DNA of 64,000 nt from Astropecten irregularis (lineage: Eukaryota > Echinodermata > Asteroidea > Paxillosida > Astropectinidae), in NCBI GenBank assembly GCA_963971285.1, contig OZ020251.1:1612001-1676000 (forward strand), read 5' to 3'. Below, in pieces: positions 12,000 through 43,207 of the stretch (within the stretch, counting starts at the first letter, position 1; every line of letters begins with the position of its first letter). The translations under genes and the position numbers were made by a program. The notes under the pieces were generated by a model that had not been told where the DNA came from, did not search any database, and worked only from the letters and a program-made list of their open reading frames with translations.

Positions 12000-13880
12000 T
12001 GTTCTGTTAGCATAGACTCGTGCCAGTGGAAGATATGGGAAGGGATGGAATGACGTCCTGTACCACGTACACACCACGAAGCTAGCTCTATGCACATTTA
12101 ACAACACAGGATGAAATGGGTATGAACAGTACCCTCAAATAAGCCAGTGAAAATAGATCCATTCAGCACTCCAGTGTCCGGCGGCCTCAGTCTCATCCCA
12201 ACTTGATCCATACGAAATACTTCGGCCACGGTATATAATACATCTAGCAGTATCGAATATCGTATGACCTCAAACAAGTTGATATTAACCTAATTACCCA
12301 ATTGTCAATTAAACATTAAAATACAGCAGCATAGTCTTATTATTTGACCGATAAAACAAGAAGGTAATTATTTACTGATTGACAAGGCTAAAAGTAACAG
12401 AAAACTGCAGTGGCATCAACGATTTCATCTGATGAAAAGAAGATGACAATTTTCATGACAAATTCTCACCCCAACTTGATCCATACGAAATACTTCGGCC
12501 ATAGTATATAATACATCTACCAGTATTGAATATCGTATGACCTCAAACAAGTTGGTAACTTGGTATTCGGACTGCCAAAACACCTGCTGTCCACACAATT
12601 ACAACAGATATTAACTTTTAATCAAACAATCAAATAAAAACCAATAAGACTGCATTATTATAAAATAGATTCACCTGGATCGAACCTTATTAGGGAGACA
12701 AGGTTTGCTATAAATTCGACCTTAGGGAGACACCGAACATTAAGGAGACATTTTTGGTGTCTCCCTAATGTTTTAGGTACCTTTTATAGACACATTTTTA
12801 ATGTCCAAATTTTTATGGAAAATAGAGAATGCTCTCAACAAAAAGATATGTCAATTTCAAGTTCATTGGTTTGGAGGATGTTTAGAAATAGGTAAGTAAA
12901 GTTCAGTGCACACCCTATGGGAATGTCTCCATAAGGTCCCATTTATAGGATAATATATATTACTCTTTATATACCTAAGTATATACTATATAACTATAAC
13001 TTTTTTTTTAAGGTATACAATGTATACAAACCTATATACCTTAAAAGCATAAACTGCAAAATAATAATCACCCTGCAACACTGCAAGATAAAATTCACCT
13101 GATGACCCAATTGTCAAATTAAACATTAAAATACAGCAGCATAGTCTTATTATATTTTAATTGAGAGCGCAAAAAGTACACCCCCCCCCCCCCCCCCCAA
13201 TAAAAAAAACCGTGGTGGCATAAACTATTTCATCTAATGAAAAGAAGACTACTATTATTTGGGTAGTATTATAATGTAGATAATTTAACTGCCTAAATTT
13301 GCTTGGAGTTAGGAGGGCCTGATCATGACGCATTTCGATCCTAGCAGGATCTTTCTCAAAGTTTTAGCCTGCTAGGATTCTAAACGTGTCATGCCCTCCT
13401 CACTCTTTAAAGGGATATGATCACCATCAGGTCATTATTTTGGCTGATGAGCAGTGTTCATCAGTTTATTACTTGTACTGTCCCTAAATTTGATTTAAAA
13501 GAGAAAAATGCATGACAGATGACAGAAATCATTTTATATAAAGACAGAATTAGACACAAATGCTCAGATGCCCATCCGTGTACATACCGTCCAACCAATT
13601 ACCGTTTCAAAATCGTTAAAAGAAAAAGGAAAAAAAACCTTCACCAGTTACCGTTTACAACTAATACGTCAACAGAAAAAAGAGAAAGCATACCCTTTAC
13701 CAGTTACCGTTTATGAATCTGTAAAATGAAAAATGAACCTTTTGCCTTTTACCATTTTCAAATGTTAATGAAGAAAAAAGGAAAAACAAACTCTTCACCG
13801 TTCATTTATTCACCTTACTTTGCAACAGAAACACAATCAACAAAAACCTGTGACCGTGAATCTTTTACCAGAACAAAAGA
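12000..13880 (-). repeat. 3'-side flank of BBOX-like copy A, truncated duplication unit
   Basis: 12000-12600 matches the flanks of copies B (19200-19780) and C (32390-32760, inverted), for example AGCTAGCTTCGTGGTGTGTA read in the C orientation. Within it, a block with CTTGATCCATACGAAATACT occurs twice (about 12197 and 12476), a local duplication. 12650-13880 holds lineage-specific sequence: a C18 run at 13181-13198, a foldback piece at 13313-13406 and a degenerate repeat of CCAGTTACCGTTTA at 13590-13710. Homology to copy D's 3' side stops about 5-10 bases after the stop codon of A. Confidence 0.6.
13313..13406. repeat. Foldback element 'GGAGTTAGGAGGGCCTGA' family
   Basis: The left half TTGGAGTTAGGAGGGCCTGA and CGATCCTAGCAGGATCTTT faces AGCCTGCTAGGATTCTAAACG and CATGCCCTCCTCACTC. 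Relatives are at 52146-52380 and 58019-58094. Confidence 0.6.
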
Positions 13881-13885
13881 TTGAC

Positions 13886-16800
13886 TTAGAATTTGAGCTT
13901 GTCCCCAAACAGGGTTTCTCGGAGAACGCGCATGCGAGAATGAGTTTCATCCCAATCCACGTAACCTCCTTCAAGATGGCGCATCCCATTCCCAGTCACG
14001 TTGTAGGCACTGCGAGCATGAAGCACGCGAATATTGCTGAAGGTCACAATTTCACCTGAAAACAAAAAAAAAAGCCAGTGAAATGTGAACAAATAGAACT
14101 AAATTGAGTTGATTCAAACCTGCGACCTCTGGAATATCACATCAATATCACATCAATATCACATTAATATCACATCAATATCACACCAATATCACAACAA
14201 TATCACACCAATATCATCACATCAATATCACACCGATATCACACCGATATCACACCAATATCACAGCAATATCACACCGATATCACACCGATATCACACC
14301 AATATCACACCAATATCACACCAATATCACAATATCACACCAATATCACACCAATATCACACCGATATCACACCGATATCACACCAATATCACACCAATA
14401 TCACACCAACATCACACCAATATCACACTAATATCACATCAATATCACACCAATATCACAATATCACACCAATATCATCACATCAATATCACACCAATAT
14501 CACAGCAATATCACAGCAATATCATCACATCAATATCACACCAATATCACATCGATATCACACCGATATCACACCATCGCACCCGTGATATTGCACCCGG
14601 ATATCACACCGATATCACACCAATATCACACCAATATCATACCAATATCACACCAATACCGCACCAATATAATACCAATATCACACCAATATCACACCAA
14701 TATCACAATATCTACCAACTGAGCTTACCAACTCTGTTAGTGGTGTAATTGTATTTAAATGAGATGATTAATTCAGTCTTGTCTTGTTTTATGCAACACT
14801 GAATTAAAAGACAAAGTCACCATCAACAAACCTGGAGCAAGAGTGTGTGAAATCACGTTACCAGGGCGATACACCACTTGGTTAAACAGCTTGATAGCTC
14901 TGTACATCTCAGTGACCTCATCAACGGGGAGGGACATAGAGGGCGCCCTCACAGTGTCGTTGTAGTTTATCTGTTTGAATTCACCGTTGGCTTGGCACCT
15001 GCGATTATGAAATCCATTAGGGATTTGTTACCGGTACTTCATATTGCCATTTTATCTCAAGTACATGTATGTCTTTACTAGTTTTTCATACTTTGGTAGC
15101 ATATCGAAACAGTAATCTTCATAGAATTACCTATAACTTAAAGGGTATGAACATGGTAATGAAGAAATATTAGAGGCTTTGCATGGTGACAATTGGTATG
15201 GGGATCGGTTTGCTGAAACACTATGTAAGAATCGTTCGTACTTTCGCACTTCTACTTCGTTTGCACTTCTTAAAGGTCTTAACGTTTCGAATAGCCTGCT
15301 CTAGTCATCATCAGGAGACCAAGATGGTGATAGTAGAAAAACCTCATTAATTTTTTTCTCCCCGAAATGCTGTGTAGGCTCTATTTGTCCAGACAAAAAA
15401 AAAAAAACCATTGACCAAATTTTGATCTTCAGAAGATTAAAAATCTTATGAAAATATAAAAATGCCTTTGGTTTACTTAACTGTTAACTCAAAAAGTGGA
15501 CATTGTATGGGACTGGGAATTTCACAGATAATTTTTACTGTATCTTATCGGATATTTTTGCTCATAAATCTGCAAATAGGTACAAGTTATAAGATAACAC
15601 TGTATTCAAAATAGGGTTAATAGATTTGGTGAAGTCAGTGGCGTCACCAAGGGGGGGCCAGGGGGGGCACGTGCCCCCCCCCGGAAAACCTCGTGCCCCC
15701 CCCCCCATTTGAAATTTGGGTTGGTGAAAAAAAATATAATATATAAAAAGTTTGCCCCCCCCAACAATTGCTAGTGCCCCCCTTGTGCCCCCCCCAGACT
15801 CAAAAGTCTGGTGACGCCACTGGGTGAAGTGCACGTCGAATTTGAATAATTTACTTGTTTATTAACATAATGAATATTCTACAATTATAGTTATTGCAAT
15901 GGCATGCAATGTTCTTTCGATCGATTGATTTTCTTCCGAGTATTCTCAGCCGATTTTCTTGTTGACTTTAAAGGTAGAGTAAATGATTGGTAACATACTC
16001 AAACAGAAATGTTCACAGATTTACATATAACCTTCAGGATAAGTTTCATGAAGTTGGTACTGGTAGAAACATACCCAAAATATTTCCACCCGAGATGGTG
16101 TATTTATCTTGATATTAGTCAATTAAACAAAGTCCGGCGAAAACAATTTTGATCTCGGGATGAGATCAAAACCAAAAGAAGAGATGAGTCGGGTTTTCGC
16201 TTTTTTCTTGTAACTCACAAGTCCGATTATTGAGCTCAAAATTTCACAGGGTTTTTATTTCATGTACATGTTTAATCAGACAAAGTGTGAATGCTTTTCT
16301 GTCTTTAAGATTAGCGACTTACTGTATGGTAGGCACGCTGTTTCTGACGTTGAAATCTTTGACATATTCCGAGCCAAATACCATGAAGTCGACATTACGT
16401 GAGGTCAATAGTTTGTATTCTGCTGGAAACTCTTTCCTGATCTGTTCTGCTGCATTCAGCCCGTCTGTGAATTGGTTCACCCCGCCTGTGACGTCACTCG
16501 TCCTGGCAACACAATGAAGCATCTGAATCTATGGATCAATCATGAACATCAATATTCTCATTTTACCCTGGAGTTCAGACAAGAAATTTAATTGAAAATG
16601 GTCCTTGATTTCCATTCCTTTTAGGAAAAAGAAGTACAAACGTGTCAAAGCCATTGTCAACATTGTCATTGTGTCGTCATGGAGGTATAGGAGTGACGTA
16701 CATGGTGCAATTGTCACTTTCATTTTGTTTGGTAATATATCATTATGTCGTTATGGCAATAATACACTAGCTTTGTCATATTACTTCTCATGCAGCATCC

Positions 16801-18371
16801 GTGTGGAGTGGCCCACTAACAAATTATGATAAAATGTGCAAAAGCGTGCTTTGCGCATCATTATGGGTTTTTAGTACACAACATATCATAATGAGGCCGT
16901 TTTATCTGTGGTTTATTTGGTCTAGTGGAGGAACGAACGTAGGGTGTCCTTAAATGTGTTTCTAAAACATTGAAGAACAACATTCAATTTAGGCAATTCC
17001 TTCCCCCTGAAACTACGAATACTAGGCCATCTAGATCTATTAACAAACGACGACATACAGAGCTGCGATGTAAAACCAGTCACATGCAGAAGAGTGCAAT
17101 TCCCTATTTTATCTGCCATTTATACAATTCTCATTTTAATTAATCTTAAATAAACTCTATTGTTTCACTCCTTTTTTTATCATGGAATCTTTTTAAAATG
17201 TAAATTCTTAACGCAATTCTGCTCTGTGGCCGCAAAGTTAGAATTTTTAATTAACCAACTTGAATAAATGAATGAATGAATGATTGTCATTGGGGATGTA
17301 TTGGCAATATTTATCATTGTTCAATTGTCATTGTCAGTTATTATAGTCTTCAGGCACCATCAAATGATGGAATCTCTCTTCATGATTGTATTATTATGTG
17401 GTGATGGTGATAATTGTGGTGATGACAAAATCGAACAATCTCACCATCATAATTCAAGTGCTTGAAAGAACTTTACTTTAATTTTCTTTTTCTTTTACAT
17501 TTTTCAAGTGCCTTTTCACCACAGAGTAAAAGGCACAGGTACTTACGCCAGGGTTAAATTTTCTGTACGGCTGATCAACATGAAGCCCAAGATTTTTTGC
17601 CGTGTAAGCAAGGCTGCAAGAATCAACTTTGCTCTCAATTTGGAACACCAGCCTTCAGAAAGACAAAGCAAACAAAATGAGATAATTGCAGATATTTGAG
17701 GCAAATTTAATCACATGAATATTTCATTATCCATCAAAAAACATGTAATAAGATACCTGTACTTTGATTCAAATCGATGTAAAGATAAAGAATAGAGAAA
17801 ATTATGCAAAGTGTATAACATTGAACTTTTACCCGTTTGCTGTCGGCTTCAAATAAGCGATTTTGTCGGCCAGTTTCTTGAGAGCTCCTTGCTCAGTAGG
17901 TGCACCTGTTACCAGAGCCAACCCCTTGGTGTTCAAGACTTCCAGCCAGTTATACAGCTCCATGTCATCTTGTAGAACCTTCTGGAAGTCAAAGGTGGGT
18001 ATGTTGCCATTCATCTCAGCTCCCCACATCTCCAGCTTGGGATGGCTCACCGAATCTCTCTCTACCTCTGAGAATCGTTGGTCATTGAGCCAGTCGGCGT
18101 GGAAGTCACTCCGGTGCTTATCGGGCCAGGTGATGCTCAGGGTACGGCCTTCATCGACGACTTCCTCGGTGGATGGTATCACATCGGGATCCAGGTCGGT
18201 CATTAAGGATGCTCTCTGTCCAGAGGATGGATGGTAGCATTGGGTACAGAGGCAGTTATCCCTCAGCCAGACGTAGGGATAGGTTCCTTGGAAACCATTG
18301 CTGATGTCTGCTCGATACCAGCGCTTTGCATCATCCCTTGAAATCTTCAACAACCGGAGAACAGACGCCAT
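13886..18371 (-). CDS. Gamma-butyrobetaine dioxygenase-like protein, copy A, 5 coding exons, 395 residues
   Basis: Exons in transcription order: 17833-18371, 17547-17652, 16323-16528, 14832-14998, 13886-14055 (539, 106, 206, 167, 170 bases). All have GT/AG borders, phases are consistent and the stop is TAA. The product matches animal BBOX1, the Fe(II)/2-oxoglutarate dioxygenase of the last step of carnitine synthesis. Visible sites: zinc ligands Cys40, Cys42, Cys45 (NCLCTQC) and His86 (WPDKHRSDF); iron ligands His204 and Asp206 (LGLHVDQPY) and distal His352 (RVLHARSAY); the 2-oxoglutarate-binding Arg365 (MRHLEGGY). The residues equivalent to two aromatic substrate-cage positions of human BBOX1 (TFYGHTW) are replaced (TANGLVF). 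The start is the MASV methionine, just inside a TTTCACAG acceptor, implying a non-coding first exon. BBOX2/TMLHE-like activity is possible; exact substrate uncertain. Confidence 0.88.
14134..14711. repeat. 11-bp minisatellite in intron 4 of copy A, inside a tRNA-like SINE
   Basis: About 50 units of ATATCACACCA with A/G/C variants. It is flanked by a B-box-like GATTCAAACC (14111-14120, minus-strand GGTTTGAATC) and an A-box-like TACCAACTGAGCTTA (14713-14727, minus-strand TAAGCTCAGTTGGTA). The array has expanded between the two halves of a tRNA-derived head. Long open frames here are by-products of an 11-base repeat without stop codons. Confidence 0.9.
15636..15822. mobile_element. hAT-like MITE with 8-bp target duplication
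   Basis: Ends CAGTGGCGTCACC and GGTGACGCCACTG are exact inverted repeats. The flanks GGTGAAGT (15628-15635) and GGTGAAGT (15823-15830) are an exact 8-bp duplication, diagnostic of hAT transposons. The interior is made of C and G runs. It is in intron 3 of copy A only. Confidence 0.88.
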
Positions 18372-18404
18372 TGCTGTGAAATTATCAATCAAACAAATTC
18401 AGGG

Positions 18405-18568: not shown

Positions 18569-19057
18569 GGCCAAGTAAAAAAAAAAATATGTTTCTCGTC
18601 CGGGTTTTTCAAAAAATTGAAAAAGAGGGGCTTTTTATTTTTTATTTTTCAAAATGGCCGCCATCTGAGATTTTTGTTGATCCCGTGTGTTTTTCCAATC
18701 ACGCAAAACATTAAAATAATGGAGACATTGTAATTCACACAAGAAATTAACATATTTACAATGTTTTAATAATGTTAGCACCAAGTGTTAGCACCTCTAA
18801 GCATATAAAATTACGCTGGAGCCAGAAATTGAATATAGACGTTTACAAATGCATAAATATTAGATGGTACGATACAAAAGAGTCTATGAAGAAAGCTACG
18901 ATGTTGAAAATATTCTTTTCACGATGGGATTTCGGGATTTTTCAATGTTAAAAACGAAGTTTTCAACAACAAAAAATCTCATTTTTTGAAAATCAAAAAT
19001 CAAAAAAAAATCGAGGCGGGCGGGGACGAGAAACATTTTTTTTTTTTTTACTTGGCC
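18569..19057. mobile_element. 489-bp Tc1/mariner-like non-autonomous element, TA target duplication
   Basis: Ends GGCCAAGTAAAAAAAAAAA and its complement, extending to about 33 bp with GTTTCTCGTCC. TA flanks both ends (18567-18568, 19058-19059). The matching region upstream of copy D (about 32970-33000) has no insertion, so it entered after the arms separated. No transposase seen. Confidence 0.78.
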
Positions 19058-19199
19058 TAAAGCAGTAGCACCAAAATTTGCTAAGCATGACATTTCTGTC
19101 TTAATAAAAACAGGGTAAACAACCACATTTCCACGTGTTGTGTATCACGTGTGATTGTTCTTTGGCTGTTGTTCGCTGACCATGAATATCAAACTTGCA

Positions 19200-21143
19200 C
19201 ACAAGTTACTTGCTCACTCACCGTTCTGTTAGCATAGACTCGTGGAAGAAATGGGAAGGAATGGAGTGATACCTGTAGTCCTGTACCACGTACACACCAC
19301 GAAGCTAGCTCTATGCACATTAATAACACAGGATGAAATGGGTCTGAATAGTACCCTCAAATAAGCCAGTAGTCTTGGTTCCAAAACCTTCGTTGTTGCT
19401 TTCCCGCGGCGCATAGGGCGGCCCCGCGCGGCGAATATGGGACAACTCTGTCAGACTTTTGGCAACTCTGACAGAATTCTCCCATACCCGCCGCGCGGGG
19501 GCGCCCTATGGGCAGAGAAAGCAGAGAAAGCAACAACGAAGGTCTTGGAACCAAGACTAATAAGCCAGTGAAAATAGATCCATTCAGCACTCCAGTGCCG
19601 GCCTCAGTCTCATCCCACTGACCTAAATACTTCGGCCATAGTATAATACGTGTGAGTGGACAACCCTTTATACAATGAAGGTCAAATAACAATACCAGTA
19701 TTGAATATCGTATGACCTCAAACAAGTTGGTAACTTGGTATTCGGACTGCCAAAACACCTGCTGTCCAAATTGAATGATTGGGAATGTTGCACACCATTA
19801 CAGCAGCTATTTACTTTTATAATCAAACAATCCAATAAAAACCAATAAGACTGCATTATTATGAGAGAAATTCCTCTTTGAATAGGCCTATATACATTTC
19901 CATAATTCATAATTCTTGAAATTATAAAACTTAAAACCATTCATTCAAAAAATAAAAATCACCCTACAACATTGCAAGATAAAACTCCCCTGATGACCCA
20001 ATTGTCAAATTAAAATTTAAAAATGAATACAGCAGCTGCACCCGATACTCACAAACTGTGTCAGTGTCGGGTGGCAGATTACCAAGAAGGTAATTATTTA
20101 CTGATTGACAAGGCTAAAAGTAACAGAAAACTGCAGTGGCATCAACGATTTCATCTGATGAAAAGAAGATGACAATTTGGGTAATATTTATAAATTATAT
20201 ATAGAGAATTTAACTCCCTAAATTTGATTTAAAAAGAGAAAATACAAGAAGAGAAGAGAAGTAAGATGACAGAAATCATTTTAATATAAAGACAGAATTA
20301 GAAACAAATGCTCAGTTGCCCTAATCCCCCTTGATTACAATGCTTTGGTTCACTCTTCCTAGGAGAGCTCAATTTTGATCTACTGTATATTTTTTTTAAG
20401 TCTCTTCCCTTTTATTTTAGATCTTTAAAAGAGCAATTGTTTTTGGTCATTGTTTTGACTCTTTTCTGGATAATTTTGCCTGAAATGCTGTATTTAATAC
20501 AGCATATTTGAGGGCACGAAACGATATCCACATGAATACACCCAAAATATTTTTGAGAACAACAAATGATTCCAATAAAATAAATTAGTTCAAAAACAAA
20601 AAAGGTTTAGAGGGAATAAGTTGAAAAAATTTGAGGGCATAAAACAATTTTCATATATTACACGAAAATATTTCGAGGCTTTTCCAACTTGCATGTATCA
20701 ATTTTGCCTAAACACGTTGAAAATTCCTGATTAAAAAAAGGGAATACTATAGGTCAAATCATCCATTGCTTTGGTTAAGAAAGAGTGATTAAATACAAAG
20801 TTATACTTAAATTTTGTATAGTAAAAAAAACTTTAAAACGACTGGAAGTGAAACTATCACGTACGTATATATTTGATCGTAATTATCATGAAAACGGCTA
20901 AATTGTACCGTTTATTTGAGTGGAATGTTCTATTCTACATTTTGAGACCTTTCCAAAGCCATACAATTAAAATTGGAAATGTTTCATTTGTTTAAATTGA
21001 ATCTTTTTTAATTGAATTGTTTAATGTACATGACATTTCCCTTAAACTCAGAATTGAATCCATGATGAATGAAGAGAAATGCCCCTGTACGTGCTCGTCA
21101 ACATCGCGTAGATTTCATCATCTTGATTAAATCAAAGAATGAC
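19200..21143 (-). repeat. 3'-side flank of copy B, shared with copy C
   Basis: Inverted match to 30894-32760 through most of its length, for example GTAAACGGTACAATTTAGCC in the C orientation and the block with GGTAACTTGGTATTCGGACT. It contains one insertion absent from the C side (19371-19558). No gene seen. Confidence 0.75.
19371..19558. mobile_element. 188-bp GC-rich foldback MITE with 11-bp target duplication
   Basis: Ends AGTCTTGGTTCC and GGAACCAAGACT are exact inverted repeats, and the arms with CCGCGCGG and GCGCCCTATG pair to a loop near 19458. AATAAGCCAGT is duplicated exactly at 19360-19370 and 19559-19569. Empty sites exist at about 12145 and 32605. A 9-11 bp duplication fits Mutator-like elements; the family call is inference. 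Confidence 0.82.
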
Positions 21144-24100
21144 TTAGAAGTTGAGCTTGTCCCCATACAGGGTTTCTCTGAGAACGCGCATGCGAGAATG
21201 AGTTTCATCCCAATCCACGTAACCTCCTTCAAGATGGCGCATCCCATTCCCAGTCACGGTGTAGGCACTGCGAGCATGAAGCACGCGAATATTGCTGAAG
21301 GTCACAATTTCACCTGAAAATGTGAACAAATAAAGATAAATACGGTTGGATTCAACCTGCGACCTCTGGAATATCACACCAATATCACATCAATATCATA
21401 CCAACATCACACCAATATCACACCAGTATCACACCAGTATCACACCAGTATATCACACCGATATCACACCAACATCACACCGACAACACAAAAATATCAC
21501 GCAGATATCACACCAATATCACACCAATATCACACCAGTATCACACCAGTATATCACACCAATATCACACCAACATCACACCAATATCACACCAATATCA
21601 CACCAGTATCACACCAGTATATCACACCAATATCACACCAACATCACACCAATATCACGCAGATATCACACCAATATCACACTAGTATATCACACCAATA
21701 TCACACCAATATCACACCAATTATATTATATCACACCAATATCACACAGATACACCACCGATATCACACAAACATCACACCAATGTCACACCAATAGGCC
21801 AACAATGAGCTATCCAGCCCTACGCGTATGTCAGTGGTGTCTATTCGAGGATGATGAGGATGAATTCAGTCTTTTATACAACACTGAATTAAAAGACACA
21901 ATCACCATTAACAAACCTGGAGCAAGAGTGTGTGAAATCACGTTACCAGGGCGATACATCACTTGGTTAAACAGCTTGATAGCTCTGTACATCTCAGTGA
22001 CCTCATCAACGGGGAGGGACATAGAGGTCGCCCTAGCAGTGTCGTTGTAGTTTATCTGTTTGAATTCACCGTTGGTTTTGCACCTGCGATTATGAAATCC
22101 AATTACTGACGTTACTTCATGTTGCCATTTTATCTCAAATATGTCTTTACTTGTTTTTCATACTTCGGTAGCATACCGAAATAGTAATCTTCACAGATTT
22201 GCCTATAACTTAAAGGTAGTATCATACTTTGTTTTTTGTCAAAGAATTACAGATTCATGAACATAAATATCAAGGAAGATAAAGTAACAGTCATCTGTGG
22301 AAATTTCAGTCCCATACGGTGCCCAATTTTCGAGAAAACAGTGAAAAACTGCCACAGTATTCCTTAAGTCTTTTCTCTTTTATTTTTGATCTTTTAAAAT
22401 ATCAAACAGATTTTTTTGACGTTGTTTTACTAACTTCTGGATAAATACACCATTTCAGACGGAAACAATTTAACGGTATGTTTCTACTAGCATCATCTTC
22501 ATACCCTGAAAGTTATACGTAAATCTGTGAACATTTCTGTTTTGGTCTCTTACCAAAGTATGATACTACCTGGTGATGGTACAAACATACAGTTAACATT
22601 TTTTTCTGCACGAAATGCTGTAGACTCTATATTTATCCAGAAAAGAATAATGCACCAATTGATCTTCTGAAAATCTCATGAAAATAATGCCATAGGTGTA
22701 TTTTACTGTTTTCTCTGAAAGTGGGCACTGTATGGGACTAGGAATTTCACAGATGACTGTTATTGTATCAGACATATAAATGGGTACGTATTTTGCATAA
22801 TATCGATATATAAATCAATTGTATTGCGTGTTTGCATAATTACATATGACCTCGTCTTTGCATTGACACGGCAAGTTATAACATAACATAGGCCTAATAC
22901 ACCGAATCGGCGTTTCCACAATAATAATGCACATACGGCCCATACAATGACGTGGCCGGTGTGTGGTAGGCCTTACACTTTAGTCATTTATTTCAAAATT
23001 TGAAAGTGACGTCCCAATAACGGTACCGGCCCGGATAACTGTGACATATTAATGATGCAAAGAAAGGTACCACGAGAAGTGAAAAACCGAATGTGAAATG
23101 CGTATGCGTACAGGGGGAAGGGGGTTGGGACCATTGCGTACGCCTTGCGTACAGAGGGGGAGGGGGGGACAAAAAAGTCAGCATTTCGTGCGTACGTACT
23201 TTATGGACGGCCCCTAGGCCTAATACACCGAATCGGCGTTTCCACAATAATAATGCACATACGGCCCATACAATGACGTGGTCGGTGTGTGGTAGGCCTA
23301 CTGTGTAGGCAATGCATGATTGAGCATTATGTGAAGGTTTGAAGTTCAAGTGGAAGTCAATGTATTAAACATGTATAGGATGGAGTGTGTGTACATGTAA
23401 TTGATTCCAGCTTGCACGTAATGAACACTACAAGTCAGCAGGCCTACATCGCAATACAAACAGGGGCCAATTCCATACAACTGTTAAGGTTGTATCATAC
23501 TTTGGTAAGAAACCAAAACAGAAATGTTCACAGATTTACATTTCACTTACAGGGTATGAAGATGGTGATGGTAGAAACATACCGTTAACATTTTTCAGCC
23601 TGAAATGATGTATTTATCCAAAAATTAGTAAAACAACGACCGAAAATCTTTTTGATCTTTTAAAAGATAAAAAATAAAAGAGAAGGCTTAAGAAATACTG
23701 TGGCTGTTTTTCACTGTTTTCTCAAAAGGTGGGCAACGTATGGGACTAAAACTTTCACAGACGACTGTTACTGTATCTGTCTTGGTATGTTTGCCCATGA
23801 ATCTGCATTTCTTTGATAAAAACCAAAGTATGATATTACCTTTCAGATTTTGTTGTGGGAGTTATAAGATAACATTGTATTCAAATTAGGGTTAATAGTC
23901 TTGGGTCTTGGCGCTCCTAATTATAATGGTTTATTTGTTTAGTTTGACACAATGTATATTCTACAATAATAGTTATCAATGCAATGTCATGCAATATAAT
24001 TATTTCAACGATCGATTGATTTTCTTCTGAGTATTCTCAGTTGATTTTCCTGTTGACTTTAAAGGTAGAGTAAATGATTGGTAAGACACCAAAACAGAAA

Positions 24101-26479: not shown

Positions 26480-26690
26480 TAGGACCCACAGAGATGCATC
26501 ATATCACCCAGTGAAATACATGTACACTGAATGTCAAAGGCACTGTATACGAATAAGAACCAAACATTCTTTTTATCAACAAAATAAACAATGACTGGCA
26601 AAATGTTGGCTACAAAGGTTGAAAATAATGACAAACATTGTAAATCAAGATGGTATATACACGAATATCGAGTGTTTAGGGCGTAAGAAT
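26480..26690. repeat. Inner end of the left palindrome arm, upstream of copy B
   Basis: The complement of this stretch (AACCTTTGTAGCCAACATTT, GCCAGTCATTGTTTA, CCCTAAACACTCGA) matches 27385-27580 upstream of copy C with scattered differences. It should hold the promoter and non-coding first exon of copy B, but I see no clear TATA box. Confidence 0.75.
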
Positions 26691-26803
26691 TGTTCAAGGA
26701 AGATTAAGTGATTGCGAACAATCATTGACCATATTGGGTAAGTTCGAGCAACTTTGGTGTCAGAAAATTAGACACTAATCTTGATTATTGGCGCGCGTGA
26801 CCA

Positions 26804-26952: not shown

Positions 26953-26954
26953 AG

Positions 26955-27101: not shown

Positions 27102-27164
27102 AGTACACATGACTGCGATACTGAGGTTCGGTGCCCATATAAGAGCTTTTATTTTTGTTTTCTT

Positions 27165-32770: not shown

Positions 32771-32784
32771 AGCAAGTAACTTGT

Positions 32785-33000
32785 GTGCAAAAATTTGCTT
32801 AGCACAAAAATGTCTCGCCCAATAAAACAAACCACCATTGAAAATTCCATTTGATATTCATGGTCAGCGAACAACAGCCCAAAGAACATTCACAAGTGAT
32901 ACACAACACGTGGAAATTTGGTTGTTAACCCTGTTTTTATCAAGACAGAAATGTCATGCTTAGCAAATTTTTGTGCTTAACAGTTTTATGAAATTGGCCA
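32785..33000 (+). repeat. GCTTAGCA-family element upstream of copy D
   Basis: Contains AAATTTGCTTAGCACAAAAATG, TGGTCAGCGAACAACAGCCC and TGAAATTGGCCAC. It is the uninterrupted counterpart of the element split by the 489-bp insertion upstream of copy A. Confidence 0.7.
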
Positions 33001-33883
33001 CAGAGCTGGATTTCACTAAACTTTAAGTTTAATCTTAAGATGAGTTGTCAGTATCACCATGGTGATTTGTATTGTGACATCACACTTTGCATAGCAATTA
33101 AGATTGGTTGATGATTTAAGATTGATCTTAGTGCTTGGTGAAATCGACCCCTGAATTTGTATGATTGACAATTTTCACAGCAATGGCGTCTGTTCTCCGG
33201 TTGTTGAAGATTTCAAGGGATGATGTGAAGCGCTGGTATCGAGCAGACATCAGCAATGGTTTCCAAGGAACCTATCCCTACGTCTGGCTGAGGGATAACT
33301 GCCTCTGTACCCAATGCTACCATCCATCCTCTGGACAGAGAGCATCCTTAATGACCGACCTGGATCCCGATGTGATACCATCCACCGAGGAAGTCGTCGA
33401 TGAAGGCCGTACCCTGAGCATCACCTGGCCCGATCAGCACAGGAATGACTTCCATGCCGACTGGCTCAATGACCAACGCTTCTCATTTCATTTCATTTCA
33501 TTTCATTTCATTTTTCATTTATTATTTTTGCAGGAACATACAAACATACAAACAGGAAATACAAGTTACATACAAAACTGTAAATCAAATATGGACGACA
33601 AAATCTTACATAGACTGAACAGTAAAAATGAGATAATAAGCTTACATGAAAAACAAAAAAACAAATAGCACCCCTGCAGGATTGCAAAAAAGTAAACTTA
33701 ATCACTGTCTAGTTGCTCTCCTTCAGTGCTATAACGGCAGACCAATAAAAAACAGACATTTCAAACAATAAAATGACAAAGGAATTGCATACATGTACAC
33801 TAACATTGGCAATGGATATAATAATAAAACATGTACATGATAAATAAATAAAAACAAATATCTATACAAATAGTGAATAAATC

Positions 33884-34207
33884 CTATGCAACTTTAATTA
33901 CATTGGCTTGAAGACCTGGAGTTAGTAAATGGTCCCTGAGTGCAGTATTAAATTGAGATAGACCAAAAACAACAGTATCCTTAACAGCTGAGGGCAATGC
34001 CTCCCATAATCTAGGGAATCTATGAAACAGGGAATAATGGGCTGCATTAGCCCTCGCCCTCAGATGATGAAATTTAACAGTATTTACATGTCTGGGATTA
34101 ATCTTGATATAATCATAAATAGGAATATCAAATTTATTATAAATACATTTTATCACAAACATCAATGAAAGGAAGTGTAATCTATTATTCAAAAAGGGTA
34201 ATCCCAA
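33884..34207 (-). pseudogene. LINE ORF2 C-terminal remnant
   Basis: Open frame with LRARANAAHYSLFHRFPRLW and NTALRDHL, typical of the region after the RT domain in CR1/Jockey-type elements (PRLWEALP, F...LRDHL). Separated by stops from the upstream frames. Confidence 0.65.
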
Positions 34208-34409
34208 CTGAATACACCTATCGGAATAAACAATGTCAATATCAGGATTAGTGGGAGCCCTTCTAGGCAGACCATAGAGCTAGGAACAGACCGCTTCCTA
34301 GCTCTACGGTCAGACCATGACAGAAGCGATTAAAACGCCTTTGTACTCTTTCCAGAGAATCTTGCAATGTGATGAGAGCAGGGCACCAGACTGGAACTGC
34401 ATACTCTAG

Positions 34410-34682
34410 TTAAGGCCGACTTATGGAACGATATAGTGTGGCAAGAATTTTAGGGTTTCTAGACTTAACAACTCTGCCAATGAATCCGTTAAGACGAGTA
34501 GCTTTGGAAATAATTGAGCTTATGTGTTGTTTCCAACTTAAATCCCTAGAAATAATAACACCGAGATATTTGTAATTATCCACTCTGTCCAGTGGATGAT
34601 CGCCAATTGTATATACAGGACTAGGAGGGTTTCTTGAACGGGTCACAATCATGACTTTACATTTATTACAATTTAAATCCAT
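34410..34682 (-). pseudogene. LINE reverse transcriptase thumb remnant
   Basis: Contains NCNKCKVMIVTRSRNPP and YKYLGVIISRDLSWKQHI, the K..VM..SR and YLGV.....L.W..HI motifs that follow the YADD box in non-LTR RTs. It directly follows the truncated RT frame; the catalytic core between them is deleted. Confidence 0.8.
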
Positions 34683-35260
34683 ATAATTGAGTTTACACCA
34701 ATGCGAGGTGGATTGGGAGCATCCAAGATATTAGCCCAAGTATGATATAAAGTGGTCAGCTGAGTCACACATGATCGTTTGGGAAGAAAGCCGTGTTGAG
34801 TGGGTGAAATTATTCCCCCGTTGTACATATGATTAATAACATGTTTAGAAATGATTCTTTCAAGAAGTTTCCCAACAACAGAGCATAATGAAATAGGCCT
34901 ATAATTGGACATAGTATGAGCATCACCTGATTTGAAAAGTGGTACTATATTTGCCAATTTCCATTCATGAGGCACGGAACCAGATATAAGAGACATATTG
35001 AACATTTTAGCTAGTGGTAGAGCTAAACTGTTACGAGCCAATTTAAGGAGCATTGGAGAAATCCCATCAGGTCCAGCAGATTTATGCATGTTCAGCTTTG
35101 ACAGTAGTTGGTTCACTTCAGCAGCATTAGTAGAAATGCTACCAAGACGAAAATTGGTGATGGAGTGATAACAATCTAATTCATTATGGCCATGAGACAA
35201 CTTACTAAAATTACTTTGAAAAATGCGATTGAAGTTCTGAGCAATACAGGGCGGGGTCAC
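34673..35260 (-). pseudogene. LINE reverse transcriptase N-terminal part, truncated
   Basis: Motifs HKSAGPDGISPMLLK, EWKLANIVPLFKSGDA, NYRPISLCSVVGKLLERII and TQHGFLPKRSC mark the fingers region of a CR1-like RT. After TTLYHTWANILDAP the normal palm (F..DWSKAFD, GVPQGS, YADD) is absent and the frame jumps to unrelated residues then a stop. Confidence 0.88.
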
Positions 35261-36818
35261 TCAGACTACCACTTTCACTGCGGAAACTTCTTACCACACT
35301 TTTACGCCGTTGGCTACTAACAAAGGACCAGAAGTGTTTAGGATTAGATGCACAATTGAAAGCCATGTCATGAACGTAACTACAATAGGACTGTCTGGTT
35401 AAGTATTTCACATCATTACGTAATTTTTTATACTTTTCCCACAAATTATGATTGGAACCATTACGGAGAGCTGCCTTATAGGCTCTGTTTTTCTTCTTAG
35501 ATAAAGTAACAATTTCAGATGTAATCCAAGGATGCCTTTTTCTACCATTCTGCTTAGCAATAGGGACAATGTCTTTAACAGCTGCAAAAAGGAGGTCTTT
35601 GAAATTCTCCCAAGCCTCATTAATATCAGCTGAGGAAAAACAAGTGTCCCAAAGAACCCTGTTCAGAGTTTGACACAGAGCATTTATATCAGCCTTTCTG
35701 TACTGATAGAAAGACCGATTCACAGTTTTGTAGTCATAGGAGGTAGATAGTTGAAATTTAACACCATAATGATCACTGTTACCGAGACCCGGATGAACAC
35801 CAACATTTGAAAATAAGTCACGTCTGTTGGTAAATACCAAATCAATTATTGAACCCTGACTGGTGGGTATATTACCTTCATGAGTGGTGAATGTCACCAA
35901 CTGATCCAAATTAAGAATGTCAGTGACAGAAAGCAAATTATGAAGTGCAGGTGAAAGTGTAGGACTGAGATTACTTGACAGTGACTTAAAATCAATATTG
36001 AAATCACCCAGAACAGTTATGGCCAAATAATGTTGAGAAAAGGGCAGTATTTTCTCCATTACACTCTGAAAATGATCGTAAAATTCTACAGATGAATTTG
36101 GAGGCCTATATAAGCATCCTAACAACACTTTGCCATGTTTAGTACAAATTTCAATAAACAATAATTCAAGGTCAACATGCTCAAAGTTGTATTTACGAAC
36201 TGGAGATAAATGATTAGCAACTGCAACAAGGACACCTCCACCGTGCCTATTCCGATCTTTTCTAAAAATGCTGTAGTTACTATCAGAGATCAGTTCACCG
36301 TCAAATATTGTGTCGTCGAGCCAAGATTCAGTGATGAAAGCAAGTTCGTACTTGTTCACATTCAACTCAGTTTGGAAGAGAAGTAGCTTGTTGACAATGC
36401 TACGAGCATTGAATAAAACTGCACTAATGTTTGATTTAGATGATGACTGCACTTGATGAGTGGAATCAGTTACTGGAATCTGATTGAGTGTGTCTGAGTC
36501 CTGAGAAGGGCCTGGATTGAGTTCAACATCCCCTCCTAAAACGACTTGGTGGAGTACATTGAAAGTAGAGGATGAGTTGGTGTAGTAGGTTACAGGGCAT
36601 CTACCAAATCTGCGATGAGGGTGGTGATGATGGTGTAGAGCTTGGATAACCACAGGAGGCAGTTGTGATGAGCTGCAGTTGTAGGCAGGATACAAGTTCA
36701 GGATACAGGTGTGTGGAGGGAAAAATCCAGTTGCACAGATGATGCTCTGACATACCAGAAAAGCTGCATGGATGTCATTGTAGAAGGATGAGTCATGGTG
36801 GGGAGAACAAGCCACCAT
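35211..36818 (-). CDS. LINE ORF with 2A-like motif and apurinic-type endonuclease domain
   Basis: 535 residues. The N-terminal 96 are low complexity with a His run (62-66). Residues 97-104 are DVELNPGP, an exact match to the 2A consensus DxExNPGP, followed by the endonuclease domain: Asn137 (LFNARS), Glu164 (ITESWLDD), GDFNID 271-276 and the SDH catalytic box 348-350 (GNSDHYG). These are conserved endonuclease/exonuclease/phosphatase residues that nick target DNA in non-LTR retrotransposition. The C-terminal third (RKRHPWITSEIV, KKKNRAYKAA) is the usual linker to RT. The frame ends by a frameshift before RT. The protein is an element component, not a host gene. Confidence 0.85.
   Translation of the reverse strand: MVACSPHHDSSFYNDIHAAFLVCQSIICATGFFPPHTCILNLYPAYNCSSSQLPPVVIQALHHHHHPHRRFGRCPVTYYTNSSSTFNVLHQVVLGGDVELNPGPSQDSDTLNQIPVTDSTHQVQSSSKSNISAVLFNARSIVNKLLLFQTELNVNKYELAFITESWLDDTIFDGELISDSNYSIFRKDRNRHGGGVLVAVANHLSPVRKYNFEHVDLELLFIEICTKHGKVLLGCLYRPPNSSVEFYDHFQSVMEKILPFSQHYLAITVLGDFNIDFKSLSSNLSPTLSPALHNLLSVTDILNLDQLVTFTTHEGNIPTSQGSIIDLVFTNRRDLFSNVGVHPGLGNSDHYGVKFQLSTSYDYKTVNRSFYQYRKADINALCQTLNRVLWDTCFSSADINEAWENFKDLLFAAVKDIVPIAKQNGRKRHPWITSEIVTLSKKKNRAYKAALRNGSNHNLWEKYKKLRNDVKYLTRQSYCSYVHDMAFNCASNPKHFWSFVSSQRRKSVVRSFRSESGSLSDPALYCSELQSHFSK
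36507..36530 (-). other. 2A-like ribosome-skipping motif coding region
   Basis: Minus-strand codons read Asp-Val-Glu-Leu-Asn-Pro-Gly-Pro at residues 97-104 of the LINE ORF, preceded by HQVVLGG. Echinoderm CR1-like LINEs are known to carry such sequences near the ORF start. Confidence 0.75.
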
Positions 36819-37483
36819 TCAATGTGCTGCAGTCATGGAAGTGGTCATCTCTGGTGGAGGTGATTAGCACTCTGTCACAACAAAGGTCAGCTGGGGTGGC
36901 ACAATGGGATTGCTCAAGCATGTAGAAAAGCCCATGTGGATGAAAAACTCCAAGCTCAGAAACTCCAAGAAGATGGAGAAAATTTGAGTGAGAATTGCTC
37001 AAAATCTCCTCCGGCGGACCAGGAAGCTGTGACCAGAGCAGACCAGTGGAATCAGCAAACTGAGCTCTATCCTGTAGTGTAAAGCATTCACCATCTTGCA
37101 ACCCCAGAACAGCAGAAAATTGCAGAAAAATGAGAGCCCTACAAAAGGCATGCTCCATGTTGAGAGGTTGTTGAGAGGTGGAGAGAGATTCAGTGAGCCA
37201 TCCCAAGCTGGAGATGTGGGGAGCTGAGATGAATGGCAACATACCCACCTTTGACTTCCAGAAGGTTCTGCAAGATGACATGGAGCTGTATAACTGGCTA
37301 GATGTCTTGAACACCAAGGGGTTAGCTCTGGTAACAGGTGCACCGACTGAGCAACGAGCTGTCCGGAAACTGGCCGAGAAAATCGCTTATTTGAAACCGA
37401 CAGGAAACGGGTAAAAATTAAATGCTATATAGGCCTAAAGAATGATCTATTTCTTACATCGAGTCGAATCACAGCTGTACGGG

Positions 37484-37762
37484 CAGTGTCGTAACTATAG
37501 GGTGGGGCAACGGGGGCACGTGCCCCGTGCGCCACTTTTTTGGGGGGCGCAAAAAAAAACCAAAACAACCAAAGGCAAAAAAGGGGAGCTGTTCTGTTTA
37601 TTGGAAATCTAATCCGATGAAATTTGAACAATTAAGAAAGAAAAATGTCAATTTCAACTTGTCTGATTTTCTTTTGTTATTGGCATCAGAAGTTGGAATT
37701 AGGGGCGCAGTTTTAGCGCTTGCACTGCTCCGCGCGCCGTTTTCCCTAGTTATACGCCACTG
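37484..37762. mobile_element. hAT-like MITE in intron 1 of copy D
   Basis: CAGTGTCGTAACTATAGGG ... CCCTAGTTATACGCCACTG ends; counterpart of 25579-25842 in copy B. Shared insertion shows intron 1 of B and D has a common origin. Confidence 0.75.
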
Positions 37763-38189
37763 TGTAGGCCTACATGTATCTTATCTTTATAGATGGAGGA
37801 TAACAGATTAATTTGTTTTAATTTGCCCAGTCTTTGCTGCTCAAATTTCTACAATTATCTCATCCTGTTTGCTTTCTCTTCCTTTCTGAAGGCTGGAGTT
37901 CCAAGTTTTGAACAAAGTTGATGCTTGCAATCTTGCCTACACTGCAGATGATCTCGAGCTTCATGTGGATCAGCCATACAGAAAATTTAACCCTGGCGTA
38001 AGTACCTGTGCCTGCTACACCTTGTGGTGAATGCACTTGAATTATGATGGTGATAATGGTGACCCGATATCATCATCACCACTATTTCACTATCACCACT
38101 GTGGTGATGATAAACAACCATGAAGATAGGGGTGCCACCATGGATGGTGCTTGAAGACTATTATTAGCTGACCATGACAATGACAACTG

Positions 38190-38540
38190 AACAATGATAA
38201 TTTACCAATACAATGACAATGGCATAATGATGTATTACCAAACAAATGACAATGGCATAATGATAGATTACCAAACAAATGACAACGACAATGGCATAAT
38301 GATGTATTACCAAACAAATGACAATGGCATAATGATAGATTACCAAACAAATGACAACGACAATGGCATAATGATAGATTACCAAACAAATGACAATGGC
38401 ATAATGATAGATTACCAAACAAATGACAACGACAATGGCATAATGATAGATTACCAAACAAATGACAATGGCATAATGATAGATTATAAACCAAACAAAT
38501 GACAACGACAATGGCATAATGATAGATTACCAAACAAAAT
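38190..38540. repeat. 33/39-bp minisatellite in intron 2 of copy D
   Basis: Inverted relative of the copy B array: units GATAGATTACCAAACAAATG ACAATGGCATAAT with or without ACAACG. About nine units, with two GTATTACC variants in the first half. Confidence 0.88.
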
Positions 38541-39152
38541 GACAGCACTTGACATTTGCACAATGTATTTTCAGTACAATGTTAATATGACAATGGAGGT
38601 GTGTACGTCCTACCTCCATGCTATGACACATTGTCATATTGACACAATGACAATGGTGACAATGGCTTTGACACTTGGAAATGCATGGAAATCAAGGACA
38701 ATTTTCAATTAAATTTTGTTGCCTGAACTCCAGGGTAAAATGAGAATATTGATGTTCATAATTGATCCATAGATTCAGATGCTGCATTGTGTTGTTAGAA
38801 CGAGTGACGTCACAGGCGGGGTGAACCAATTCACAGACGGGCTGAATGCAGCAGAACAGATCAGGAAAGACTTTCCAGCAGAATACAAACTGCTGACCTC
38901 ACGGAATATCGACTTCAAGGCCTTAGGCACGGACTATATCAAAGGGTTCAACGTAAGAAATAGAGTACCTATCATACAGTAAGTCGCCAATCTTAAAGAC
39001 ATGATTGATATATATGTCACAGAACAGCACTCGCACTTTGTCTGATCCAGCATGTACATGAAACGATAAATCTGTGAAAATTTGAACTCAATCGGACATC
39101 TGATTCACAAGAAGAAAAAAATGCGAAAACCTTACTCATCGATCGTTTCTTA

Positions 39153-39965
39153 CACTCTAAAAAACAAAGTGCTAAAAGTCAGGTGCTACTTTATAACTGC
39201 ACCTCAGGTGCAAGACTCAGCACCACAGGGGTAAAATGTTTCTGAGGTGCTGAAAATCGGGTGCTGAAAATAGGTGCTGTCTGCTTAATAGCACCTGAAG
39301 AGCAAACGTGAAACCCAAAGATTTTGATTGGTCCATATATGTGTCACGTGATTTTTGTGACAACTGTGACAACTTCGTGAAGAACAATACAGATTAATCT
39401 TAAATTATGCATCAATCTTAATTGCTAAGCAAGGTGTGATGTTGCAATACAAATTATTATTGTGATAATGACAAATAGATTCGATAATAATGAGTGTTCC
39501 GGACAAATGGGCGCTGGGCACGTTGATTCGAGTAGAAGTGCTAGCGTAACTGTGGCGCCATTTTCATATTCTTCCGTATGTATAAAGTGAAATATCACAA
39601 CATCTTATACCAGAGCTACTGACGATGCAAGGGAGCCGCAATACAAGTACAGGTATATGCAATACTTATAAAGTTGTTACATTACGTTATTAATTAATTA
39701 AATTTGCTTATAATTCAAATGTCAGTACCAACAGATTGAGCACGTTGTTAGCTCTTAAGGAGTCAAACAAGAATTATTTTAGCGCCTATGAACATGCTTT
39801 TAACAGCTCCTGTGGTGCACAAATTGAGCACCCGATAGGTGCTAAATAAGTAACACTTGATGGTGTGCTAAATCAGCACTTCGGGAGTAGTCACTATACA
39901 AGCACCTGGAAGTGCAAAAAAAAAGCACTTCAAGAGCTGATTTTAGCACTTGGTTTTTTAGAGTG
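39153..39965. mobile_element. 813-bp TA-flanked element with CACTCTAAAAAAC ends
   Basis: Inverted ends CACTCTAAAAAAC and GTTTTTTAGAGTG; TA duplicated at 39151-39152 and 39966-39967. Copy B has the empty site TTTCTTATAAAAC (read inverted at about 24265). The subterminal regions are full of GGTGCT/AGCACC motifs. No transposase, so it is non-autonomous. Confidence 0.88.
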
Positions 39966-40390
39966 TATAAAACATAAAGAATGGTTTTGATCTTACCCCG
40001 AGATCAAAATTGGTTTCGTTCTTTGTTTGACTAATTTCGGGATAAATACACAATTTCAGACGGAATTTTTTTAATTGTGTGATTCTACCACCATCATCTT
40101 CACTCTGAAAGTTATATGTAAATCTGTGGACATTTCTGTTTTGGTGTCTTACCAATCATTTACTCTACCTTTAAAGTCATTAGGAAAATCAACTGAGAAT
40201 ACTCAGAAGAAAATCAATCGATCGTTGAAATAATTATATTGCATGACATTGCATTGATAACTATTATTGTAGAATATACATTGTGTCAAACTTAAACAAA
40301 TAAACCATTATAATTAGGAGCGCCAAGACCCAAGACTATTAACCCTAATTTGAATACAATGTTATCTTATAACTCCCACAACAAAATCTG

Positions 40391-40749
40391 AAAGGTATTA
40401 TCATACTTTGGTTTTTATCAAAGAAATGCAGATTCATGGGCAACAATACCAAGACAGATACAGTAACAGTCGTCTGTGAAAGTTTTAGTCCCATACGTTG
40501 CCCACTTTTTGAGAAAACAGTGAAAAACAGCCACAGTATTTCTTAAGCCTTCTCTTTTATTTTTGATCTTTTAAAAGATCAAAAAGATTTTCGGTCGTTG
40601 TTTTACTAATTTTTGGATAAATACATCATTTCAGGCTGAAAAATGTTAACGGTATGTTTCTACCATCACCATCTTCATACCCTGTAAGTGAAATGTAAAT
40701 CTGTGAACATTTCTGTTTTGGTTTCTTACCAAAGTATGATACAACCTTA
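40391..40749. mobile_element. TTAA-family MITE, intron 3 of copy D
   Basis: Counterpart of 23484-23843 in copy B. Ends AAAGGTATTATCATACTTTG and CAAAGTATGATACAACCTTAA. Confidence 0.68.
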
Positions 40750-40924
40750 ACAGTTGTATGGAATTGGCCCCTGTTTGTATTGCGATGTAGGCCTGCTGAC
40801 TTGTAGTGTTCATTACGTGCAAGCTGGAATCAATTACATGTACACACACTCCATCCTATACATGTTTAATACATTGACTTCCACTTGAACTTCAAACCTT
40901 CACATATTGCTCAATCATGCATTG

Positions 40925-41355
40925 CCTACACAGTAGGCCTATCACACACCGACCACGTCATTGTATGGGCCGTATGTGCATTATTATTGTGGAAACGCCG
41001 ATTCGGTGTATTAGGCCTAGGGGCCGTCCATAAAGTACGTACGCACGAAATGCTGACTTTTTTGTCCCCCCCTCCCCCTCTGAACGCAAGGCGTACGCAA
41101 TGGTCCCAACCCCCCTTCCCCCTGTACGCATACGCATTTCACATTCGGTTTTTCACTTCTCGTGGTACCTTTCTTTGCATCATTAATATGTCACAGTTAT
41201 CCGGGCCGGTACCGTTATTGGGACGTCACTTTCAAATTTTGAAATAAATGACTAAAGTGTAAGGCCTACCACACACCGGCCACGTCACTGTATGGGCCGT
41301 ATGTGCATTATTATTGTGGAAACGCCGATTCGGTGTATTAGGCCTATGTTATGTT
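40925..41355. repeat. Duplicated 95-bp block in intron 3 of copy D
   Basis: Inverted counterpart of 22885-23315 in copy B, including both direct copies of CCGATTCGGTGTATTAGGCC (40998 and 41325 region). Confidence 0.7.
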
Positions 41356-41639
41356 ATAACTTGCCGTGTCAATGCAAAGACGAGGTCATATGTAATGCAA
41401 ACACGCAATACAATTGATTTATATATCGATATTATGCAAAATACGTACCCATTTATATGTCTGATACAATAACAGTCATCTGTGAAATTCCTAGTCCCAT
41501 ACAGTGCCCACTTTCAGAGAAAACAGTAAAATACACCTATGGCATTATTTTCATGAGATTTTCAGAAGATCAATTGGTGCATTATTCTTTTCTGGATAAA
41601 TATAGAGTCTACAGCATTTGTATGTTTGTACCATCACCA

Positions 41640-42000
41640 GGTAGTATCATACTTTGGTAAGAGACCAAAACAGAAATGTTCACAGATTTACGTATAACTT
41701 TCAGGGTATGAAGATGATGCTAGTAGAAACATACCGTTAAATTGTTTCCGTCTGAAATGGTGTATTTATCCAGAAGTTAGTAAAAAAACGTCAAACAAAT
41801 CTGTTTGATCTTTTAAAAGATCAAAAATAAAAGAGAAAAGACTTAAGGAATACTGTGGCAGTTTTTCACTGTTTTCTCGAAAAGTGGGCACCGTATGGGA
41901 CTGAAATTTCCACAGATGACTGTTACTGTATCTTCCTTGATATTTATGTTAATGAATCTGTAATTCTTTGACAAAAAACAAAGTATGATACTACCTTTAA
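41640..42000. mobile_element. TTAA-family MITE, second copy in intron 3 of copy D
   Basis: GGTAGTATCATACTTTGG ... AAGTATGATACTACCTTTAA; counterpart of 22210-22570 in copy B. Confidence 0.7.
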
Positions 42001-42410
42001 GTTATAGGCAAATCTGTGAAGATTACTATTTCGGTATGCTACCGAAGTATGAAAAACAAGTAAAGACATATTTGAGATAAAATGGCAACATGAAGTAACA
42101 AATCTCTAATGGATTTCACAATCGCAGGTACAAAACCAACGGTGAATTCAAACAGATAAACTACAACGACACTGCTAGGGCGCCCTCTATGTCCCTCCCC
42201 GTTGATGAGGTCACTGAGATGTACAGAGCTATCAAGCTGTTTAACCAAGTGACGGCCCGGTAACGTGATTTCACACACTCTTGCTCCAGGTTTGTTGATG
42301 GCGATTGTGTCTTTTAATTCAGTGTTGTATAAAAGACTGAATTCATCCCTGAACTAACCCTAACCCTCGAATCGACACCACTGACATAGCCTGCTGGATA
42401 GCTCAGTTGG

Positions 42411-42789
42411 CCTATTGGTATGACATTGGTATGACATTGGTGTGATATTGGTGTGATATTGGTGTGACATTGGTGTGATATTGGTGTGATATTGGTATGA
42501 CATTGGTGTGATATTGGTGTGATATTGGTGTGACATTGGTGTGATATTGGTGTGATAATGGTGTGATATTGGTGTGATATTGGTGTGATATTGGTGTGGT
42601 GTTGGTGTGGTGTTGGTGTGATATTGGTGTGATATTGTGATATTGGTGTGATATCGGTGATATTGGTGTGATATTGGTGTGATATTGGTGTGATATTGGT
42701 GGTGTGTTGGTGTGATATTGGTGTGATATACTGGTGTGATACTGGTGTGATATTGGTGTCATGTTGGTATGATAATTATTGGTGTGATA
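42411..42789. repeat. 11-bp minisatellite in intron 4 of copy D, inside a tRNA-like SINE
   Basis: Units TGATATTGGTG. A-box-like GGATAGCTCAGTTGGCC (42396-42412) and B-box-like GGTTGAATCC (42804-42813) remain on either side, the clearest of the four cases for the A box. Confidence 0.9.
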
Positions 42790-43207
42790 TTCCAGAGGTC
42801 GCAGGTTGAATCCAACTCAATTTGGCTTTATTTGTTCACATTTTCAGGTGAAATTGTGACTTTCAGCAATATTCGCGTGCTTCATGCTCGCAGTGCCTAC
42901 ACCGTGACTGGGAATGGGATCCGCCATCTTGAAGGAGGTTACGTGGATTGGGATGAAACTCATTCTCGCATGCGCGTTCTCAGAGAAACCCTGTTTGGGG
43001 ACAAGCTCAAATTCTAAGTCAATCTTTGATTTCATCAAGATGATGAAATCTACGCGATGTTGACGAGCACGTACAGGAAAATTTCTCTTAATTTTCCATG
43101 GATTCAATTCTGAGTTTAAGGGAAATGTAATGTGTATTGAACAATTCAATTAAAAAAGATTCACTTTAAACAAATGAAACATTTCCAGTGTTAATTGTAT
43201 GGCTTTG

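Follow-up and report, generated by a model that had tools for sequence, protein, structure and literature searches.

The stretch of Astropecten irregularis DNA considered here (GenBank assembly GCA_963971285.1, contig OZ020251.1, positions 1,612,001 to 1,676,000, 64,000 nucleotides; below, the window, in whose coordinates all positions are given) carries four copies of a gene resembling BBOX1, the gamma-butyrobetaine dioxygenase of carnitine synthesis. It is likely that these are a young local gene family rather than extra carnitine genes: a cluster formed by tandem and inverted duplication and reworked by gene conversion, with one dead copy (D) and three intact ones (A, B and C) whose substrate pockets are diverging. 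As a structure the cluster is of a known kind; the substrates are the more interesting part.

Exons 1-4 of A and exon 5 of B, used as BLAST queries within the window (threshold E 1e-3), each found four places, exon 1 of D being in two pieces. A and B are on the minus strand and C and D on the plus strand, diverging outward from B and C, whose start codons are 1,146 bp apart. The first-pass annotation, made from the same DNA, had described four BBOX-like copies, two on each strand and facing apart, and BLAST and the gene models agree. Its identical exon lengths are found in A, B and C (539, 106, 206, 167 and 170 nt in each) and break down in D, with its split exon 1 and 162-nt exon 4. Nor are there four working genes, D being broken by a long interspersed nuclear element (LINE) and a frameshift; the spacer, put at 0.7 kb, measures 816 bp. 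The main features are:

13886..18371, minus strand: gene A, intact, BBOX-like, 395 amino acids, GT/AG splice sites, open frame; exons 18371-17833, 17652-17547, 16528-16323, 14998-14832, 14055-13886
21144..26451, minus strand: gene B, intact, BBOX-like, 395 amino acids, GT/AG splice sites, open frame; exons 26451-25913, 25455-25350, 24641-24436, 22083-21917, 21313-21144
26623-27438 (816 bp): central spacer; the 5' flanks of B and C on either side of it are related
27598..30893, plus strand: gene C, intact, BBOX-like, 395 amino acids, GT/AG splice sites, open frame; exons 27598-28136, 28309-28414, 29259-29464, 30054-30220, 30724-30893
33183..43017, plus strand: pseudogene D, with an A-like 5' flank and a B-like body; exon 1 pieces 33183-33485 and 37175-37410, exons 37892-37997, 38773-38978, 42128-42289, 42848-43017
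33486..37174 (3,689 bp), minus strand: LINE in exon 1 of D, with an (AATGA)n tail

The A, B and C proteins are 91-93% identical to one another. An 11-bp minisatellite, AATATCACACC or its complement, occupies part of intron 4 in all four copies (14133-14707, 21370-21796, 30340-30667 and 42413-42774).

Family membership and the substrate pocket

Judged by their sequences, A, B and C are relatives of BBOX and TMLHE (trimethyllysine dioxygenase), BBOX-like yet outside the curated group. Gene A, the copy scanned against Pfam, matches GBBH-like_N (42.3 bits) and TauD (124.8 bits), each above its cut-off. The best PDB match is BBOX1 (E 4.8e-77, 36.8% identity, 130/353); the five distinct sequences returned are three gamma-butyrobetaine dioxygenases, then TmpA and DfmD. 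On the NCBIfam models A, B and C respectively score 337.2, 338.0 and 334.6 bits for TIGR02409 (gamma-butyrobetaine dioxygenase, cut-off 414.75), 222.3, 218.6 and 220.4 for TIGR02410 (TMLHE, cut-off 268.3), and 290.2, 282.4 and 293.1 for NF049936 (TmpA, 2-trimethylaminoethylphosphonate dioxygenase, cut-off 400), below the cut-off in every case. A 357-residue fragment of human BBOX1, run as a control, passes TIGR02409 at 549.2 bits and scores 292 on the TmpA model and 228 on the TMLHE model, near the values for A, B and C. Since TIGR02409 names prokaryotic proteins and the control was human only, the miss on this model is not in itself proof of another function. Of 38 pattern matches in bacterial and archaeal genomes, five were relatives, all bacterial (30-34% identity in the best segment), and these served solely as comparators.

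In the numbering of human BBOX1, the His202-Asp204-His347 iron triad, Arg360 for 2-oxoglutarate and the four zinc ligands (8/8 positions) are identical in A, B and C. The zinc ligands are presumably Cys38, Cys40, Cys43 and His82. With these cofactor residues intact, the products of the three genes are probably active as oxygenases.

The substrate pocket is another matter. The aromatic cage of BBOX1 is made up of Tyr177, Trp181 and Tyr194 (PMC13257696). At the Tyr177 position A, B and C have Asn, Asn and Ser, and Tyr or Phe is found there in all eight comparators (human, TmpA, DfmD and the five bacterial relatives, with TmpA and DfmD read off by eye), so that the complete BBOX1 cage is absent from all three copies. 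The Trp181 position is Phe in A, B and C; this is a mild change, as Phe is also present in three of the five bacterial relatives and in the Pseudomonas enzyme, whose cage is Phe184, Phe188 and Tyr201 (PMC4736438). Tyr194 is retained throughout. Asn191, the homologue of the TMLHE residue Asp231, which has been tied to substrate choice (PMC7764450), is replaced by Ser in A and Asp in C and kept in B; Ser in one and Asp in two of the five bacterial relatives caution against over-reading this position. At Asn292, which interacts with substrate (PMC12067446), A and B have Asn and C has Ser.

Among A, B and C 47 of 395 codons vary, and 28 of these fall in codons 178-201 and 261-303. Three of the six substrate positions are variable, and none of the eight cofactor positions. 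The pockets thus appear to differ both from that of BBOX1 and from one another, and the copies probably act on related, non-identical small molecules rather than adding to carnitine dosage.

Dosage, with the additional copies making more of the carnitine product, is the strongest of the alternatives, though still unlikely. BBOX1 is the closest PDB relative, the iron, 2-oxoglutarate and zinc residues are retained, exons 1, 4 and 5 are 93-99% alike among the copies, and the Pseudomonas cage (PMC4736438) indicates that Phe in place of Trp181 should in principle do no harm; however, all three copies stay under a TIGR02409 cut-off that the human fragment passes, their Tyr177 position is non-aromatic where all eight comparators are aromatic, and their Asn191 position is different in every copy. 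The description of these as carnitine synthesis genes cannot accordingly be taken as established, the TIGR02409 cut-off having been missed and an aromatic cage residue lost. More generally, similarity alone is insufficient for giving such genes that name. If the pocket differences are functional, three enzymes 91-93% identical, yet unlike at sites to which substrate choice in the carnitine oxygenases is ascribed, make that choice directly testable.

Symmetry, mosaic identity and the dead copy

Within the window there are inverted matches as long as 3.3 kb, with E values down to 0, far above chance. Besides the genes, the following features bear on the symmetry and history of the cluster:

11982..13573: downstream of A, remnants of the intergenic region, fragmented and diverged
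18575..20953: B/A intergenic region, inverted relative of 31080-32980, the four longest of the matching pieces being 93-97% identical
31080..32980: C/D intergenic region, inverted relative of 18575-20953
22209..23843: 1.6-kb repeat with inverted ends of about 360 bp, in intron 3 of B, 97.5% identical to 40391-42001
40391..42001: whole copy of the 1.6-kb inverted-ended repeat, in intron 3 of D

Moving outward from the spacer, the sequence on the B side, from 26622 down to about 18.1 kb, is collinear with that on the C side, from 27439 up to 33485, and 32 of 37 segments of 150 aligned bases along these inner arms are 83-100% identical. Over the 150 bp immediately preceding the start codon, A is 95.3% identical to D and B 84.3% to C, the remaining four pairings reaching 53-55%; 3' of the stop codon, B and C are 93% and 99% alike in two stretches. 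This is the pattern to be expected if a tandem pair was duplicated as a whole in inverted orientation. Farther upstream, past insertions, the homology of A and D picks up again. The pieces in the left outer flank (11.98-13.57 kb) resemble both intergenic regions within the cluster, which favours an earlier head-to-tail duplication of the gene together with downstream DNA.

The two inverted arms extend from the spacer as far as exon 1 of A on one side and of D on the other, and no farther. The 31-kb palindrome proposed at first pass for 12,000-43,207 is therefore rejected in its clean form: the bodies of A and D are unlike (78% in intron 1, about 51% in the 3' flanks), that of D being nearest to B, and the outer flanks are dissimilar, the right and left aligning at only 37-53% past the genes and the right having no BLAST match to the left, which flanks A. 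Beyond D, likeness to B and C is confined to the first 190 bp, and one 90-bp piece (81%) resembles the central spacer. The flanking sequence had also been called inverted; so it is for the inner flanks, and not for the outer ones, where the left holds intergenic pieces and the right is without a match. As read from these alignments, an inverted arrangement of multicopy BBOX-like genes does exist, with an imperfect symmetric core of some 15 kb and outer genes that have diverged.

Inside the spacer, at the centre of the cluster, a 150-bp stretch (26801-26955) and its own reverse complement are 87.6% alike, and there is a relative at 2183-2332; the stretch may represent a dispersed element or may have seeded the inverted duplication.

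Identity between the copies is strongly uneven. Between B and D it climbs from 92.7% (late exon 1 and intron 1) through 97.0% (exon 2 through exon 3) to 99.0% (intron 3), then drops to 92.4% between exon 4 and the 3' end (chi2 118, P 2e-25). Exon 1 is 94-99% alike across all six pairs of copies, and exon 2 of A only 83-84% identical to the others; among A, B and C the synonymous divergence of exon 2 is 0.37-0.38 (about 24 sites) versus 0.07-0.13 for exon 1. The end of exon 3, like exon 2, is more divergent than other tracts. Copy-to-copy exchange appears the simplest reading of this mosaic, and the unevenness is better fitted by tandem and inverted duplication with gene conversion than by a duplicated haplotype.

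The approximately 360-bp sequence that forms the ends of the 1.6-kb element is itself a dispersed repeat, paired in B and D and single at 28513-28816 and 61084-61452.

D is a pseudogene, dead through the LINE in exon 1 and the frameshift in exon 4. The LINE splits exon 1 into 303 and 236 nt, the break falling after nt 303, and the pieces on either side of it join at the same nucleotide; exon 4, at 162 nt, is 5 bp short and the frame is lost. The insertion has both features of a 2A-bearing non-LTR (long terminal repeat) retrotransposon: endonuclease and reverse transcriptase domains, the latter barely over its cut-off (30.2 vs 29.6 bits), and the motif D[V/I]ExNPGP of the 2A-like sequences of these elements (PMC4981915), here GGDVELNPGP, about 97 codons into the endonuclease frame and upstream of the domain. 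The endonuclease matches lie in one frame and the reverse transcriptase match in another, so the copy looks decayed.

The history that best accounts for these observations begins with a BBOX/TMLHE-family Fe(II)/2-oxoglutarate oxygenase gene, which would first have been duplicated head-to-tail along with downstream DNA. The tandem pair would then have been copied in inverted orientation, giving A and B pointing leftward and C and D rightward; the order of these two steps is the one we infer. Since then gene conversion has probably homogenised some tracts (exon 1 in general, intron 3 in B and D, and the 3' ends in B and C), and exon 2, together with the last part of exon 3, is more divergent. 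D has died, with the LINE in its exon 1 and the frame lost in its exon 4.

Another possibility is an assembly error in which the other haplotype of the left arm was wrongly joined on, inverted, as the right arm. The 83-100% likeness in 32 of 37 inner-arm segments would be compatible with this, as that range includes the allelic divergence of some marine invertebrates, and the record is a scaffold, with an assembly gap of 200 N at 6040-6239. Such an artefact predicts, however, that A should equal D and B equal C evenly along their length, and what is seen is a D with a B-like body, diverged from A in intron 1 and the 3' flank, and an identity that changes sharply along the arms; the exon 1 pieces of D meet at the same nucleotide across the LINE, as for one continuous locus, and the sequence from 12 to 43 kb is free of N. 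A simple duplicated haplotype is accordingly disfavoured, and we consider it improbable. Less probable again is a palindrome kept by selection for arm-to-arm conversion in the style of the mammalian Y chromosome: B/D and B/C tracts do reach 98-100%, but arm identity is lower than in maintained palindromes, large insertions and deletions separate the arms, and one copy is dead.

Several observations nevertheless weigh against a young, conversion-shaped cluster with diverging pockets. The order and number of the copies are known from a single assembled sequence. Five of the 37 inner-arm segments, in introns 2 and 3, are only 41-69% identical; from 150 to 500 bp upstream of the genes plain alignments give just 57% for A and D and 51% for B and C, and the homology of B and C stops about 165 bp upstream. 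Pieces of the 1.6-kb repeat are present in intron 3 of A (77-82%) and in intron 3 of C (84%), with another in intron 2 of C, and it is possible that the whole repeat of B and D is an ancestral one lost from A and C, rather than a transfer from B to D. The enrichment of variable sites in the pocket has a P of 0.024, from six positions and a test chosen after the pattern had been noticed. The ratio of nonsynonymous to synonymous substitution (dN/dS) does not exceed 1 in any of exons 1, 2, 3 and 5, and its value of 1.4-1.6 in exon 4 comes from one or two synonymous changes.

Positive selection as a demonstrated force is therefore rejected, exon 4 being the sole place where the ratio exceeds 1. 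Over the whole gene dN/dS among A, B and C is 0.22-0.47, and, as it does not exceed 1 in exons 2 and 3, the pocket pattern is also explicable by drift of a segment that escapes conversion. A more specific version of the favoured reading is that conversion homogenises exons 1, 4 and 5 but leaves the pocket segments (codons 178-201 and 261-303) to diverge, so that the three neighbouring copies have come to carry Ser, Asn and Asp at the single residue considered to distinguish BBOX from TMLHE. The cluster would then be a natural set of oxygenases for new substrates, the requirement for a trimethylammonium group having been lost; this we put forward tentatively, as a possibility with the odds against it.

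Known systems and surrounding sequence

With human BBOX1 (PDB 3ms5, 3o2g, 4bg1) the copies share the two-domain layout, 36.8% identity, the iron triad, the 2-oxoglutarate arginine and the zinc ligands; unlike it, they differ at Tyr177, Trp181, Asn191 and Asn292 and score 211-215 bits lower on TIGR02409. TMLHE belongs to the same superfamily, and copy C has Asp at the position of TMLHE Asp231 (PMC7764450), but A, B and C reach only 219-222 bits against the 268.3-bit TMLHE cut-off, and their equivalent of the cage residue Tyr217 is non-aromatic. Cnidarian TauD-domain genes, distinct from the BBOX1 and TMLHE orthologues, are expressed at the larval aboral pole (PMC12225738). They resemble the present genes, by description only, as animal TauD-domain oxygenases of unproven substrate, and differ in that the portion of that text consulted does not describe a gene cluster. 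In another echinoderm, BBOX1 is among the positively selected genes tabulated in a sea cucumber study (PMC10764150).

Large palindromes with genes had been called rare at first pass, which is overstated: 11 palindromic gene blocks are reported in the springtail Folsomia candida and, as cited there, 17 in the rotifer Adineta vaga (PMC5490193). These are likewise inverted multicopy gene blocks in invertebrate genomes; the present cluster differs from them in comprising one gene family and in being less symmetric and visibly mosaic. Among the titles and abstract openings listed, a part of the literature on BBOX/TauD expansions in animals, none described such a cluster, a weak negative, as subscription journals are also thinly covered. 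For genome structure, the locus exemplifies a young inverted cluster that is mosaic in makeup and in which one gene is dead.

The window as a whole has a guanine-plus-cytosine content of 38.6%. Five ranges from 46042 onward, outside the cluster, gave no Pfam match above the curated cut-off, and the sole named neighbour is an amidase, a stop-free and apparently intronless frame of 460 amino acids on the minus strand at 3596-4975 (Pfam Amidase, E 3.7e-84). A tandem repeat occupies 6596-7716 (unit 103 bp, 10.9 copies, 91% matches), and a 271-bp stretch at 58444-58714 resembles its own reverse complement at 90.6%.

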